DNA of 64,000 nt. It comes from Actinoplanes octamycinicus. Its GTDB lineage: Bacteria > Actinomycetota > Actinomycetes > Mycobacteriales > Micromonosporaceae. This document shows, in pieces, positions 49,840 to 54,946 of the stretch. Every line of letters begins with the position of its first letter. Position 1 is the stretch's first letter. The notes under the pieces are model-generated. The model was given only the letters and a program-made list of their open reading frames with translations, made no database searches and was not told the origin of the DNA. A program made the translations under genes and the position numbers. Location of the stretch: positions 9,963,501-10,027,500 of the forward strand of contig NZ_JACHNB010000001.1 of the NCBI RefSeq assembly GCF_014205225.1, in the 5' to 3' direction.

Positions 49840-50844
49840 TTACGCCTGGGCTCGGTTGCGGAGGCGGGGCAGGATCTCGGTCGAGTAGAGGCGCAGGAAG
49901 CGTTCCTGGTCCGGGCCCGGGGCGTGGAAGACCAGGTGCTTGAAGCCCATGTCCAGGTACTCGGTGACCTTGGCGGCGTGCTCGTCCGGGTCGGAGGAGA
50001 CGATCCAGCGGGTGGCGGTCCGCTCGACCGGCAGGGCGTCGGCCAGGCGCTGCATCTCGACCGGGTCCTCGACGCCGGTCTTCTCCTCCGGGGAGAGCGC
50101 GAGCGCGCCCCAGTAGTGGGTGTCGTTGCGGGCGCGGTCCAGGTCGTCGTCGAAGGAGACCTTGACCTCGATCATCAGGTCCAGGTCGTCGAGCTTCTTG
50201 CCACCTTTCTCGGCGCCCTCCTTGACCGCCGGCAGCAGCGTGTCGGTGTAGAGCCCGTGGCCCTTGCCGCTGGTGGTGATGAAGCCGTCGGCGATCCGGC
50301 CGGCCAGCCGGGTCGCGGCCGGGCCGGACGCGCCGATGTAGATCGGCACCGGCTGGTCCGGCTTGTCGTAGATGGTGGCGTTCTCCGTTCGGTAGAACTG
50401 CCCCTCGTAGGTCACCCGGTCCTCGGCCCACAGCTTCTGGATCAGCAGGACCGCCTCCTTGAGCCGGGCGAACCGCTCCTTGCCGTCCGGCCACCGGGTG
50501 CCGAGCAGCACCTCGTTGAGCGACTCGCCGGAGCCGACGCCGAGGATGGCGCGGCCCGGCGCGAGGCAGCCCAGAGTGGCGAAGGCCTGCGCGACCACGG
50601 CCGGGTGGTAGCGGAAGGTCGGGGTCAGCACGCTGGTGCCGACCAGGACCTTCTCGGTACGCGCGGCGAGCGCCCCGAGCCAGGGCAGCGCGGCCGGGGC
50701 GTGCCCGCCGTCGTGCCGCCACGGCTGCAGGTGATCGCTGACGAAGACCGAGTCGAAGCCCAGCTCCTCGGCGAGAATGCCGTATCTGAGCAGTTCAGCC
50801 GGAGCGAACTGCTCCGCCGACGCCTTGTACCCGAACCGAATCAT
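49840..50844 (-). CDS. fgd: F420-dependent glucose-6-phosphate dehydrogenase
   Basis: 334-residue luciferase-like flavin/F420 enzyme that oxidises glucose-6-phosphate to 6-phosphogluconolactone and reduces coenzyme F420. It matches mycobacterial FGD1 in many stretches: GYKASAEQFAP at the N-terminus, SDHLQPWRHDGGHAP with the active-site His38 (FGD1 His40), GTSVLTPTFRYHPAVVAQAFATLGCL, GVGSGESLNEV, KERFARLKEAV, TTSGKGHGLYT, ALPVERTATRWIVSSDPDEH and LVFHAPGPDQERFL. This supplies F420H2 for other LLM-type reductases, such as that at 54974. It begins 10 bp after the sigma-glucanase gene ends, on the same strand. Confidence 0.96.
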   Translation of the reverse strand: MIRFGYKASAEQFAPAELLRYGILAEELGFDSVFVSDHLQPWRHDGGHAPAALPWLGALAARTEKVLVGTSVLTPTFRYHPAVVAQAFATLGCLAPGRAILGVGSGESLNEVLLGTRWPDGKERFARLKEAVLLIQKLWAEDRVTYEGQFYRTENATIYDKPDQPVPIYIGASGPAATRLAGRIADGFITTSGKGHGLYTDTLLPAVKEGAEKGGKKLDDLDLMIEVKVSFDDDLDRARNDTHYWGALALSPEEKTGVEDPVEMQRLADALPVERTATRWIVSSDPDEHAAKVTEYLDMGFKHLVFHAPGPDQERFLRLYSTEILPRLRNRAQA

Positions 50845-50854
50845 GAAACCGAGC

Positions 50855-52666
50855 CTAACCCGCCGCGCGGTACGCCTTGCCCGCCTCGGTCGGGCTGTCG
50901 CCGTCCCGGTAGAGCCCGAAGTCGACGCTGTCCCCGACGGCGGGCAGGCCGAACCAGGCGTACCGCTCGACGAACGAGCGTTTCTCCAGGCCGGCGGTGG
51001 CGCCCTTGATGAAGGTGACCTTCTGGGCGTCGTTCGGGTACTTCGGCGAGCCGGAGAAGTTCATCAGGCCGAACTCGGTGATCCAGATCGGCTTGCCGTA
51101 CCGCTGGTGCACCGCGTCGACGTAGCCGAGGAACTGGTCGACGGCGGCGGCGCTGAAGTCCGAGCCGTACCAGTGCAGGGCGATCGCGTCGACCCGCAGC
51201 CCCTTCGCCTTCGCCCCGGCCATGAACCGGTCCAGCCAGCCGCCCGCGGTGTCCCCGCCGAACGCGACCGCCGGGCTGACCAGCCGCATCCCGGTCGCCT
51301 CCAGCTGCGGCCAGGCCGCGAGGGCGTCCTCGACGCTCATGTTCGCCTGCCCGCCCATGTCCGGCTCGTTGAAGCCGAGCAGCACGTCCCCCTCGGCCTT
51401 GGCCTGCTTCAGGGTCGCGCCGGTGACGTTCTGCTTCCCCCAGATCATCGGGACGAACTCGACGCCGGCCGGGCCGGGGATCTCGTCGTTCTGCGCGGCC
51501 CAGTCGTAGTACCAGCCGGCTCCGACGTTCTTCAGGGCCGCCTTGGACCCGTCGAACTTCCAGACGCCGACACCCTTCTTGGCCGAGGCCTGCTTGGCCG
51601 GCACGGCCGGCTTCGCGGACGGGGATGCCGAGGTACGCGACGGCGCCGGCTTGCTCGTCGGGGCGATCGACGGCGGCAGTGACGGCGGCCGGCTGACCGT
51701 GGCCGGCGACGGGGCGACGACGGCCTGCGGGACGGCCGGCTCGGCCGGCTCGTTCAGCGTGTAGGCGGCCGCGGCGCCACCCCCGGCGACGGTCACCGCG
51801 AGCGCGGTGGCCAGCAGTTTCTGGGTGGCGCTCAGGCCCGCCTTGACGGCCAGGGCCTTGACCCCGCCGCCGGCGCCGGCACCCAGCCCGCCCGCGCTCA
51901 GCCCGGCGGCCAGCGACGGCGCCGGCACCACCAGGGCCATGCCGGCCAACAGCCGTTCCGCGGCGACCAGGTCCTGCCAGGCCGGCGCGCAGTGCCGGCA
52001 CTCCCGGGTGTGCCGGGCGATCCGCTTGCGCCACAGCGCGTTCGGCCGGCCGTCCCACGGCTCGATCAGCACCGCCAGCTCCGGGCAGAGCGGCTGCCGG
52101 TGCAGCGCCCGGACCACCGCGCGGGCGGTCTCCAGCTGCCCCTTCATCCGCTGGATGCGGACCGCGGCGTGCTGCCGGCCCACCCCGGTGCCCTCGACGA
52201 TCTCGTCGCGGGTCAGCTCGCCGGAGGCCTCCAGCCACCAGAGCGCGAGCAGCTCCCGGTTCTCCTCGTCCAGCCAGCGGGTCGCCTCGGCGGTCTCCCG
52301 GCGCTGGCCGGACAGCTCCAGCCGGGTGATCGCCAGGTCGGTGAAGTCGGCGCCCGGGTCGCGCAGGTCCGGGTCGAGCAGGGCGTGCTCGCCGGCCTGC
52401 CGGGCGCGGAACCGGTCCCGCACCTGGCGCACCGTGATCGCCACCAGCCAGGAGCGGAACGCCTCCGGCTCGCGCAGCTCGCCGAGGTTCCGCAGGACCC
52501 GGATCATCGTCTCCTGCACCACGTCGTCGACGTCCGCGTGCCCCTCCAGGGCCCGGCCCACGATGGTGTAGACCAGCGGAAGGTAACCGGCCACGAGCCG
52601 GTCGATCGCGGCCGGGTCGCCGGCGCGCGCGGCCACCACGGTGGCGGTGTCGGGTTGGTTCGCCAT
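50855..52666 (-). CDS. ECF sigma factor fused to anti-sigma motif, membrane helix and GH128-like glucanase domain
   Basis: 603 residues in one frame. Sigma region 2 spans about 25-88 (LPLVYTIVGRALEGHADVDDVVQETMIRVLRNL, FRSWLVAITVRQVRDRFRAR). Region 4 spans about 132-185 (ELTRDEIVEGTGVGRQHAAVRIQRMKGQ). A zinc anti-sigma motif H219-x3-C223-x2-C226 lies in a ZAS-like helix pair. One membrane helix is at about 281-303, then a Pro/Ser/Lys linker (305-363). Residues 365-600 form an Asl1-like GH128 fold with probable catalytic Glu434 (GFNEPD) and Glu531 (WITEFG). Topology: sigma inside, glycosidase outside. The ATG at 52666 has AAAGGG upstream. GH128 members act on beta-1,3-glucans, so a glucan signal is inferred. 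No frameshift or stop separates the parts. Confidence 0.9.
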   Translation of the reverse strand: MANQPDTATVVAARAGDPAAIDRLVAGYLPLVYTIVGRALEGHADVDDVVQETMIRVLRNLGELREPEAFRSWLVAITVRQVRDRFRARQAGEHALLDPDLRDPGADFTDLAITRLELSGQRRETAEATRWLDEENRELLALWWLEASGELTRDEIVEGTGVGRQHAAVRIQRMKGQLETARAVVRALHRQPLCPELAVLIEPWDGRPNALWRKRIARHTRECRHCAPAWQDLVAAERLLAGMALVVPAPSLAAGLSAGGLGAGAGGGVKALAVKAGLSATQKLLATALAVTVAGGGAAAAYTLNEPAEPAVPQAVVAPSPATVSRPPSLPPSIAPTSKPAPSRTSASPSAKPAVPAKQASAKKGVGVWKFDGSKAALKNVGAGWYYDWAAQNDEIPGPAGVEFVPMIWGKQNVTGATLKQAKAEGDVLLGFNEPDMGGQANMSVEDALAAWPQLEATGMRLVSPAVAFGGDTAGGWLDRFMAGAKAKGLRVDAIALHWYGSDFSAAAVDQFLGYVDAVHQRYGKPIWITEFGLMNFSGSPKYPNDAQKVTFIKGATAGLEKRSFVERYAWFGLPAVGDSVDFGLYRDGDSPTEAGKAYRAAG

Positions 52667-52800
52667 CTGCACTGCCCTTTCCTCCGGCGCCGGGGCGCCA
52701 CAAGGGGAGACGGGCGCGAGGACCATGGATAACACGAATCGGCGACCGGGTCTCGGGCCCGGCACGGTTAACTCTCGGACCGATCGGGCACAGAAACGGC

Positions 52801-53193
52801 ATGCGCATGTCGGTTCGGCTCAGCCTTCCCCGCGAGGTAGACAGTGTTCCCGCCGTGCGCCGGCTCCTGCGTTGCGCGTTGACGACGCTCCGAGTGGACG
52901 ACCAGGCCGGCGCCGATCTGGAGATCGCCCTCACCGAGGCCTGTGCCAACGTGGTGAAACACGCCTCCGGAGCGGACGGCTACGAGGTCCGCCTGGACGT
53001 CGGCCACGATCATTGCTCGATCGACGTGGTCGACGACGGCACCGGGTTCGACCCGGCCGCCGGGACGGCGCCCGCGGCGACCAGCGAGCGCGGCCGCGGC
53101 CTGTTCCTGATCCGGGCACTGGCCGAAAACGTACGCATGCAGTCCAGCCCGCGCACCGGCTCGTTGATCCACTTCGAGAAGTCCTTCGCCTGA
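52801..53193 (+). CDS. HATPase anti-sigma / RsbW-like ATP-binding protein
   Basis: 130 residues, GHKL ATPase of the RsbW/SpoIIAB-like group. N box: LEIALTEACANVVKHA; G1: VDDGTGFDP; G2: RGRGLFLIRALAENV. Such proteins phosphorylate an anti-anti-sigma factor or hold a sigma factor. Here the protein lies divergent from the sigma-glucanase gene and directly upstream of a SpoIIE-type phosphatase. The ATG at 52801 gives MRMSVRLSLP; an ATG at 52807 is possible. No STAS-domain partner was found nearby. Confidence 0.92.
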   Translation: MRMSVRLSLPREVDSVPAVRRLLRCALTTLRVDDQAGADLEIALTEACANVVKHASGADGYEVRLDVGHDHCSIDVVDDGTGFDPAAGTAPAATSERGRGLFLIRALAENVRMQSSPRTGSLIHFEKSFA

Positions 53194-53234
53194 CACGCCC
53201 TGACGGGCCGGTGCCCTGCATCCGCAGACCGTTT

Positions 53235-53252
53235 ATTTGTCGTATAACAAAT
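53235..53252. promoter_or_regulatory. 18-bp inverted repeat with TATAAC, candidate promoter/operator
   Basis: ATTTGTCGTATAACAAAT: 6-bp arms ATTTGT/ACAAAT around CGTATA. It lies 24 bp before the GTG of the SpoIIE-type gene, and its AT-richness stands out here. TATAAC (53243-53248) could be a -10 hexamer; no good -35 was seen. Confidence 0.4.
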
Positions 53253-53275
53253 GTCGGTCCTGGAGAGGAGCACTG

Positions 53276-54415
53276 GTGTCCGACCACCCGGTCCCCATCG
53301 GCGCGCTGCTGCGTGCCGCGGCACCCGACCGCCTGCCCGAGGTGATCGCCGAGCATCTGCGCCGGCACTTCGCGGCCGAGCAGGTCGAGGTGCTCGTCGC
53401 CGACCTGGCGCTGCGCCAGTTCGCCCCGCTGCTCGGTCCGCCGGGGGCGGACACCGACCCGGCCGCGCTGCGCTGCCTGGGCAGCCAGCAGCCGGCCACC
53501 ACCACCGGTCCGGCCGGCGCCCGGCTGCACCTGCCGCTGTCCTGCTGGGGCGAGCGGCTCGGGGTGCTGCGCGTCGACCTGCCCGGCCGGCCGGACACGG
53601 AGCAGGCCGACCAGCTGCGCCTGGTCGCCGACGAGCTGGCGGTGGCGTTGCGCGCCGCCGACCGGATGACCGACCGGTACCGCAAGGCGCAGTGCCTGCA
53701 GCGGCTGACCATGGCCGCCGAGCTGCAGTGGGACCTGCTGCCCGGCCGTTCGCTGGGCGACGAGCGGTTCCTGCTCGCCGGTCAGCTGGAGCCGGCGTAC
53801 GAGGTGCGCGGCGACCACTTCGACTGGGCGCTGGCCGGCGACCGGCTCACCCTGACCGTGCTCAACGGTGCCGGCGAGGGCATGGACGCGGCGCTGCTGA
53901 CCGCGACCGCGGTGAACGCGATGCGCAACGCCCGGCGCTGTGGCGCGGACCTGGTCGAGCAGGCCGAGCTCGCCTCGGACGCCCTGCACTCCCGGTACGG
54001 CGGCGGCCTGCACGCCGCCACCCTGCTGCTGGAGATCGATCTGGTCGGCGGCTGGGTGGACGCGGTCGACGCCGGGTCGCCGCACTGCATGATCGGCCGG
54101 GGCGGCGAGATCAGCCAGGTCCGGCTGGAGCAGCAGCTGCCGCTGGGCATGTTCGGCGAGGCCCGGTACGAGATCGAACGGTTCCGGCTGGAGCCGGGTG
54201 ACCGGCTGCTCGTGGTCAGCGACGGGGTGCACGCGGCGGCGCCCGGCGGTGGTACCACCTTCGGGGAGTCCGCCCTGTTCACGGCGTTGCGCAGGACTAG
54301 GTTGCAACCGGCCACCGAGGCGGTCGGTACGGTGATGCGGGGTCTGCGGGAATTTCACGCCGGCTCCGAGCCGGAGGACGACGCGGTGACGGTCTGCCTG
54401 GATTGGCGCCGTTGA
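53276..54415 (+). CDS. SpoIIE-type PP2C phosphatase with N-terminal GAF-like domain
   Basis: 379 residues. The N-terminal 150 residues look like a degenerate GAF domain (RLHLPLSCWGERLGVLRVDLPG, LRLVADELAVALRAADRM). The C-terminal SpoIIE domain starts RLTMAAELQWDLLPGR and keeps the metal and catalytic pattern: RGDHFDWALAGDRLTLTVLNGAGEGMDAALLTATAVNAMR, DAVDAGSPHCMIGRGGEI, LVVSDGVHAA and EDDAVTVCLDWR. Partner-switch phosphatases dephosphorylate anti-anti-sigma factors. Start GTG at 53276 has GGAGAGGAG 5 nt upstream; the longer upstream frame would cover the promoter-like palindrome. Confidence 0.9.
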   Translation: MSDHPVPIGALLRAAAPDRLPEVIAEHLRRHFAAEQVEVLVADLALRQFAPLLGPPGADTDPAALRCLGSQQPATTTGPAGARLHLPLSCWGERLGVLRVDLPGRPDTEQADQLRLVADELAVALRAADRMTDRYRKAQCLQRLTMAAELQWDLLPGRSLGDERFLLAGQLEPAYEVRGDHFDWALAGDRLTLTVLNGAGEGMDAALLTATAVNAMRNARRCGADLVEQAELASDALHSRYGGGLHAATLLLEIDLVGGWVDAVDAGSPHCMIGRGGEISQVRLEQQLPLGMFGEARYEIERFRLEPGDRLLVVSDGVHAAAPGGGTTFGESALFTALRRTRLQPATEAVGTVMRGLREFHAGSEPEDDAVTVCLDWRR

Positions 54416-54487
54416 CCGGTTTACGGCGACCTCGGGCGGGGTACACATCAGGCCTTTGAGGCTCGTGACTTCGCGACGGGAAACGCC

Positions 54488-54946
54488 ATGGAGCACGCCA
54501 CCGATGTCGCCGCGGCGATCGACACGTCGCTGGAGTCGCTGGTGGCTGTCCTGGAACGGGCCCGTCTCGCGCAGAGCCCGGCGATCCCGCCCGCGCAACT
54601 GCGGGTGCTGACCATCGTCGCGGAGAACCGGCACACCAACATGAGCCGCCTCGCCGAGGCGCTCGCCGTGGTGCCCTCCTCGGCCAGCCGGCTCTGCGAC
54701 CGGCTGGAGGCGACCGGGCTGCTGCGCCGGGTGGCCGACCCGCGGGACCGGCGCGAGGTGCGGCTGCTGCTCACCGCCGCGTCCCGCCGGCTCCTGGCCG
54801 ACCTGCGGGAACGCCGCCGGGAGGCGCTCGCCGAGGTGCTCGAGCGGATGCCGGTCACCGCCCGGCAGGACCTGGTCCGGGCGCTGCGCGCCTTCGAGGC
54901 GGCCGCGGCCGACGCCACCGCCGGCGACGATCTCCGGACCGCCTGA
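54488..54946 (+). CDS. MarR-family transcriptional regulator
   Basis: 152 residues. The winged helix-turn-helix is MSRLAEALAVVPSSASRLCDRLEATGLLRRVADPRDRREVRLLLTAASRRLL, preceded by a helix with LRVLTIVAENRHTN. The DxRD wing motif is present (DPRDRREV). The role is likely control of stress or efflux genes; the neighbouring LLM oxidoreductase at 54974 may be a target, since they are close and co-directional. The ATG at 54488 gives MEHATDVAAAID. Confidence 0.92.
   Translation: MEHATDVAAAIDTSLESLVAVLERARLAQSPAIPPAQLRVLTIVAENRHTNMSRLAEALAVVPSSASRLCDRLEATGLLRRVADPRDRREVRLLLTAASRRLLADLRERRREALAEVLERMPVTARQDLVRALRAFEAAAADATAGDDLRTA

Follow-up and report, generated by a model that had tools for sequence, protein, structure and literature searches.

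A one-piece sigma factor with a GH128 outer domain in Actinoplanes octamycinicus, a candidate beta-1,3-glucan sensor

Architecture and conservation of the fusion gene

The window, a 64,000-nucleotide stretch of DNA from the soil bacterium Actinoplanes octamycinicus (genome G000), carries one gene in which an ECF sigma factor is joined to a glycoside hydrolase domain (Table 1). The sigma part matched the ECF profile TIGR02937 with 60.7 bits (cut-off 42.9) and the Pfam profile Sigma70_r2 above its cut-off; region 4 is assigned from TIGR02937 and from its conservation. No zinc-finger or anti-sigma Pfam profile matched the window protein at E ≤ 1, and the putative anti-sigma module carries an H-x3-C-x2-C motif that recurs in 79 of the 80 proteins of our first scan, among the matches listed. 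The hydropathy of the candidate membrane helix is marginal in the window protein. The linker is 38–66 aa long across the aligned rows, with a median P+S+T+A content of 76%. When the full chain was used as the query, the matches of the structure search were all taken up by the GH128 part. Sequence and fold assign this part to GH128 subgroup I with the catalytic Glu pair present, and glucanase activity is predicted from this. The reference enzyme AmGH128_I is a subgroup I endo-beta-1,3-glucanase from Amycolatopsis mediterranei (6uaq). A gene 100% identical to AmGH128_I is a stand-alone frame of 296 codons, which excludes that enzyme as part of a sigma fusion. GH128 catalysis is treated in the available portion of PMC10956234.

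Table 1. Features of the sensor gene and its surroundings in the window
Feature	Position	Strand	Remarks
One-piece gene: ECF sigma, zinc anti-sigma module, hydrophobic segment, linker, GH128	50855..52666	-	603 aa
Sigma region 2	52391..52609	-	residues 20-92; Pfam E 4.6e-15; conserved
Sigma region 4	52112..52291	-	residues 126-185; TIGR02937 spans 20-179; conserved; helical
H219-x3-C223-x2-C226 motif	51989..52012	-	in anti-sigma module, residues about 186-245; in 100/99/99 of 100 rows
Candidate membrane helix	51737..51802	-	residues 289-310, by hydropathy; low-confidence helix 282-294
Linker, Pro/Ser/Thr/Ala-rich	51593..51736	-	residues 311-358
GH128 domain	50858..51592	-	residues 359-603; sequence and structure searches
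E434	51365..51367	-	aligns with E102 of AmGH128_I
E531	51074..51076	-	aligns with E199 of AmGH128_I
GTTATC-N16-GTCTCC, candidate -35 and -10 boxes for the sensor gene	52706..52733	-	conserved upstream
RsbW-type ATPase-, SpoIIE-type phosphatase- and MarR-like genes	52801..54946	+	named by eye; divergent from the sensor gene

The first scan of genome contigs found at least 80 loci among the matches listed. Forty-one of these group with the window protein by their C-terminal part, and the rest have the head alone in common with it. All 80 listed records are actinobacterial by title. The original prediction had described a single fused protein ending in a GH128-like domain with two candidate catalytic Glu, and had named a consistent split of the homologues into two genes, or a C-terminal domain without a glycosidase fold, as grounds for dropping it. 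Fusion, fold and Glu pair are all confirmed. The same domain order was found across many genera, which rules out a fusion or sequencing error, and only one of the 41 GH128-type first-scan loci (L030, among the matches listed) is split into two frames; a second reading of a contig matching that one in length (L206/L208) has a long masked or unread run at the split. Elsewhere in the family, two copies are frame-split, with two head pieces each (L112, of the CAP type described below, at G225:C77, and another at G509:C21), and L243 and L251 stop shortly past the hydrophobic part.

We then compared 100 GH128-type rows, which include near-copies and the window itself (99 dereplicate to 28 by head identity). 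H219, E434 and E531 are invariant in 100/100 and C223 and C226 are present in 99/100; H498-W499-Y500-G501 is nearly invariant, with Y500 replaced by F in five. Mean column identity is highest in sigma regions 2 and 4 (0.78 and 0.79), compared with 0.71 for GH128. These rows bear on the question of whether the outer domain serves as a binding sensor only, its catalysis being weak or irrelevant. This has been reported for RsgI6-GH10, a xylan binder of very low activity that was read as a converted enzyme (in the accessible part of PMC4711584), and in sister paralogues of the window protein the same head bears a lectin or an AbfB domain. A pure binder should, however, lose the Glu residues in places, so their invariance is what would be expected if catalysis is selected; the near-invariant H498-to-G501 stretch likewise speaks against a binding-only role, which we regard as possible but not favoured.

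The divergent genes upstream of the sensor belong to a flanking block of ATPase, SpoIIE-type phosphatase, MarR, two luciferase-like oxidoreductases and HAD genes (named by eye). This block recurs in 15 of the 41 GH128-type first-scan loci (among the matches listed; one of the 15 lacks the ATPase), all of them from Actinoplanes or near genera, and the other 26 have only distant oxidoreductase matches (32–33%) within flanks of about 6 kb. The block therefore looks like plain synteny, and we disfavour its genes as functional partners.

One head with varied outer domains

The head is shared by proteins with different outer domains (mean column identity of the head 66% in 20 diverse rows). BLAST grouping of 249 proteins gave GH128 (100), CAP (39 + 7), AbfB (34), CL3 (21), Pel9A-type (20) and smaller groups, an uneven sample because many regions were hand-picked. 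Pfam was run on group representatives and named 8 of the 12 labelled groups, GH128 included. The other matches above cut-off were to CAP (L044, L043, L060), AbfB (L051, L068), a Pel9A-like beta-helix (L247), pectate lyase (L192), GH99 (L174), Lcl_C (L220) and a ricin-type lectin (L241, where the domain is cut by the end of the fetched region). The remaining groups have no Pfam name or fall below cut-off: CL3, L047/L052 (lysozyme-like by eye), CL10 (L218) and DUF4185 (L230). L230 and the CAP protein L190 are below the Pfam cut-off. The CL3 proteins (L040, L055, L073 and 18 others) have a conserved C-terminal domain of about 200 aa on the same head and a promoter spacer of 17; Pfam scans of L040 and L055 gave no match to this domain.

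At E ≤ 1e-35, heads were detected in 24/296 genomes sampled across the class and 157/250 sampled within the family, the window's own genome counted. A quick head tree of 112 dereplicated rows, built with a simple model, requires 16 label changes, close to the minimum of 11 for 12 labels and far from the mean of 69.2 for shuffled labels. We therefore reject frequent reshuffling; for the most part, an outer domain remains within one lineage of heads. Ten of the 249 rows are outside the tree: L062, L110, L158, L206, L208, L225, L243 and L251 are cut, masked, short or unlabelled, and L030 and L112 have no readable motif.

A promoter-like element and the genes behind it

The original prediction had proposed a search for ECF-type promoters near the gene, and this yielded a promoter-like element that ties the gene to beta-1,3-glucanase genes. 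In an upstream alignment of 15 Actinoplanes-like genes (the window's included) and a Cellulomonas gene, GTTATC and GTCTCC separated by 16 nt are common to all with few changes; near relatives share more than the element and far ones little else. An unguided gapped-word count over dereplicated upstream regions ranked the same word first for GH128 (46/75) and CAP (23/31), and first with one extra spacer base for CL3 (8/15), while the best word of shuffled sequences reached 3–4. We did not find an ordinary sigma-70 promoter in window positions 50600–53400.

With a spacer of 16, at most one mismatch and 250 bp of upstream sequence, the element is present at 79/100 GH128-type and 32/39 CAP-type genes, and it was not found at 34 AbfB, 20 Pel9A-type beta-helix, 21 CL3 or 249 shuffled regions; rows and genomes are related by kinship, so such counts are not independent. 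The other 21 GH128-type genes are without it within one mismatch. The CL3 result reflects the spacer of 17 in that group, and a looser pattern recovered 10/21 CL3 and 1/34 AbfB genes. Since CAP-type sensors also have the element, it is not glucan-specific, and since AbfB and Pel9A-type heads are without it, it is no general mark of the head family.

We next searched whole genomes. In G000 the exact pattern (spacer 14–16) occurs in two places, with none for the backwards control. One is the window gene and the other a GH16/ricin-lectin gene (413 aa) with the element 70 bp before its ATG; the frame just before that gene matches CBM5/12 and, over a short stretch, GH16. The exact predicted site thus precedes only the sigma–GH128 gene itself and the gene of a predicted secreted glucan-cutting enzyme. 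A draw of genomes from the genus gave 125 matches (spacers 14–16) in 55 of 60 genomes against 4 for the backwards control, and 46 of the matches precede a sensor (42 by coordinates and 4 more by reading). The 59 other N16 matches precede 17 GH16, 1 GH64, 12 DUF1996 and 18 BTAD regulator genes, with nothing recognised at 11; Pfam searches with one to three representatives named each family, and BLAST grouping assigned the remaining members. Fourteen of the GH16 proteins are, like those with ricin-lectin domains, about 413 aa long and three have F5/8C domains, and the predicted GH64 target is a GH64 + CBM6 beta-1,3-glucanase gene divergent from the sensor in G469. The 20 matches whose spacer is 14 or 15 yielded no relative of the GH16, GH64, DUF1996 or BTAD candidates.

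The DUF1996 proteins (L324 and 11 relatives) have an N-terminal hydrophobic stretch and possibly a glucan-related role. The BTAD/AAA regulators (L325 and 17 relatives) also lie behind the element, and most of their matches have a nearly fixed spacer, CATTGACACCCGGCCC, which itself contains TTGACA. We know of no tie of either gene to glucan.

In a draw of 250 genomes of the family, 157 have a head and 82 of these have the exact N16 element; of the 93 in which no head was detected, 13 do (Fisher p 6.6e-10, kinship ignored). The backwards control matched six times. We fetched 20 hand-chosen matched regions other than sensors from this draw. In genus g2, probably Micromonospora, 8/9 precede a membrane-anchored GH128 without a sigma part, with 51% identity to the window protein over 301 aa (one compared) and 65–68% to the sensor of its own genome (three compared). 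All four fetched genomes of genus g120 (L411–L414) have the element before a membrane protein of 182–183 aa, for which the one scanned gave no Pfam match. The two fetched regions from the window's genus again showed GH16 (L430) and BTAD (L429). The remaining six, in which no recognised target was found, are L423, L424 and four regions (including the ninth from g2) whose genomes have no detected head. Outside the family, in 21 genomes chosen for a long GH128 frame (not all of them read), 13 have a match and 13/20 matches precede a sensor by frame or coordinates, with none of the 20 before a recognised glucanase. The stand-alone GH128 of the Saccharothrix family was discarded as a target, as 0/30 mostly stand-alone GH128 genes have the element.

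The anchored g2 enzymes raise the question of whether the window protein is itself mainly a surface-anchored glucanase with the sigma part as a relic membrane anchor. We consider this very improbable, as sigma regions 2 and 4 are the best-conserved parts of the protein and the promoter-like element is kept. It is also improbable, though less so, that another factor reads the element and controls the glucanase genes and the sensor gene alike. The AbfB and Pel9A-type heads without the element would fit such a factor, but the element is common to GH128, CAP and CL3 heads (the last with spacer 17) and is commoner in family genomes with a head. Promoters of ECF sigma factors, moreover, typically consist of two blocks, the second containing GTC.

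Proposed mechanism, known systems and sister paralogues

We propose that the protein is a membrane-tethered, autoregulated beta-1,3-glucan sensor that acts as its own sigma factor, released on contact with glucan and directing a GTTATC-N16-GTCTCC regulon, and we give this reading a probability of about 0.6. The fused zinc anti-sigma module would keep the sigma part inactive inside the cell while the GH128 domain samples extracellular beta-1,3-glucan, such as that in the walls of fungi or oomycetes. Once the domain engages or cuts this glucan, proteolysis at the membrane would follow, and the freed sigma part would read its own promoter together with promoters of beta-1,3-glucanase genes whose products are secreted or sit at the surface (GH16 in the window's genome; GH16, GH64 and anchored GH128 in relatives). 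Because inhibitor and sigma factor would share one chain, proteolysis of the anti-sigma part would have to halt before it reaches the sigma part. The original prediction that the outer enzyme or a bound glucan controls release of the sigma part has gained support in part, from the architecture, domain order, fold, Glu pair and promoter-like element; release on glucan binding or cutting is the proposed step, and catalysis may or may not be needed for it.

The sensor might instead monitor an envelope or development polymer of the bacterium itself rather than food or prey. We think this unlikely, because secreted beta-1,3-glucanases of GH16 and GH64, equipped with lectin or CBM6 modules, are among the predicted targets, and to our knowledge these bacteria have no beta-1,3-glucan of their own. 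On the other side, a BTAD regulator is among the predicted targets, and the ECF52 protein SCO4117 controls differentiation and antibiotic production (in the accessible part of PMC5826349).

By layout (fused zinc finger, membrane helix judged from hydropathy only, long C-terminal extension), the window protein resembles the actinobacterial ECF52 and ECF53 groups. As far as the available text of three sources goes (PMC8999054, PMC10766802, PMC5826349), these have a sigma factor, a zinc finger, one or two membrane helices and a C-terminal extension, some of the fused forms carry predicted glycosyl hydrolase or carbohydrate-binding domains, and proteolytic release is expected. Section 3.5.3 of PMC8999054 extends that expectation to ECF48/52/53 and describes release as demonstrated for IutY. 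In the available text of the three sources, the GH-bearing forms appear without a stated ligand or target, whereas for the window protein a promoter-like element and candidate targets can be named, and its GH128 domain has retained the active-site residues. In PMC10766802, enzyme-bearing one-piece transmembrane sigma factors of actinomycetes are reviewed without experimental validation. IutY of Pseudomonas putida (ECF243) is likewise a sigma factor fused to a membrane anti-sigma factor and subject to regulated proteolysis (PMC8999054, same portion), but it responds to a siderophore and has no glycosidase.

In Clostridium thermocellum, RsgI6 and RsgI5 present an extracellular GH10 or CBM42, respectively, on an anti-sigma factor, and the targets of SigI6 include its own gene and xylanase genes (accessible part of PMC4711584). 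That system differs in having two proteins, a SigI-family sigma factor, an autocleaving RsgI domain and a GH10 of very low activity; RsgI release proceeds by autocleavage, RseP and ClpXP (excerpt of PMC12203970). The window protein falls outside the RsgI family, being one chain with an ECF sigma part and giving no RsgI-type Pfam match at E ≤ 1. The circuit had been called unusual. The fusion of a glycosidase to a sigma factor is real, but with fused ECF52/ECF53 proteins, some bearing predicted GH domains, and RsgI6-GH10 already published it is less unusual than supposed. Among the top-ranked matches in the open-licence literature, no report of a GH128–sigma fusion, its promoter or its regulon was found. 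The text available from PMC8103513 names neither ECF52 nor ECF53, and that of PMC12691653 concerns two other glycoside hydrolases of Actinoplanes. PMC10061750, a metatranscriptome study, is among the listed matches for GH128 together with sigma factor.

The locus combines a single candidate class of ligand, beta-1,3-glucan, with a single element and two exact predicted promoters genome-wide, and the two Glu residues could tell whether glucan is sensed through binding or through cutting. If the proposed reading holds, the same head with other outer domains would provide a ready-made set of polysaccharide sensors. G000 has four heads: the GH128 form of the window, two AbfB forms and one beta-helix form. 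One AbfB form (L388:3435-4733, plus strand) is divergent from a GH10 xylanase gene and the other (L389:3425-5877, minus strand) lies beside GH43 + CBM6 and alpha-galactosidase-like genes, a neighbourhood that suggests arabinoxylan-type sensors. More tentatively, the outer domain could be a functional duplicate of the enzyme or surface protein induced by the sigma factor, so that both read the same polymer in a kind of plug-in kit; for GH128, the signal would then be cutting of the glucan rather than its mere binding, and in the beta-helix pairs gene conversion between inverted copies would keep the two identical.

The beta-helix domain was found in 2 of the 67 genus genomes searched, G000 and G430, both assembled as single contigs, and every copy is paired. 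The G000 pair consists of the beta-helix sigma factor and a divergent lipoprotein (lipobox by eye), at L390:1175-2614 (minus strand) and L390:2855-5050 (plus strand), whose beta-helices form an inverted repeat with 99.92% DNA identity over 1194 bp. G430 has two pairs (L432/L434 and L435/L436), and in all three pairs the beta-helix sigma factor is divergent from a stand-alone protein that carries the inverted copy. Within-pair identity is 99.92%, 99.83% and 100% over 1177–1249 bp in the three pairs, compared with 81.5% between G000 and the nearest G430 pair and no blastn match to the other. Sensor and effector thus seem to be homogenised within pairs, likely by gene conversion or inversion between the inverted copies.
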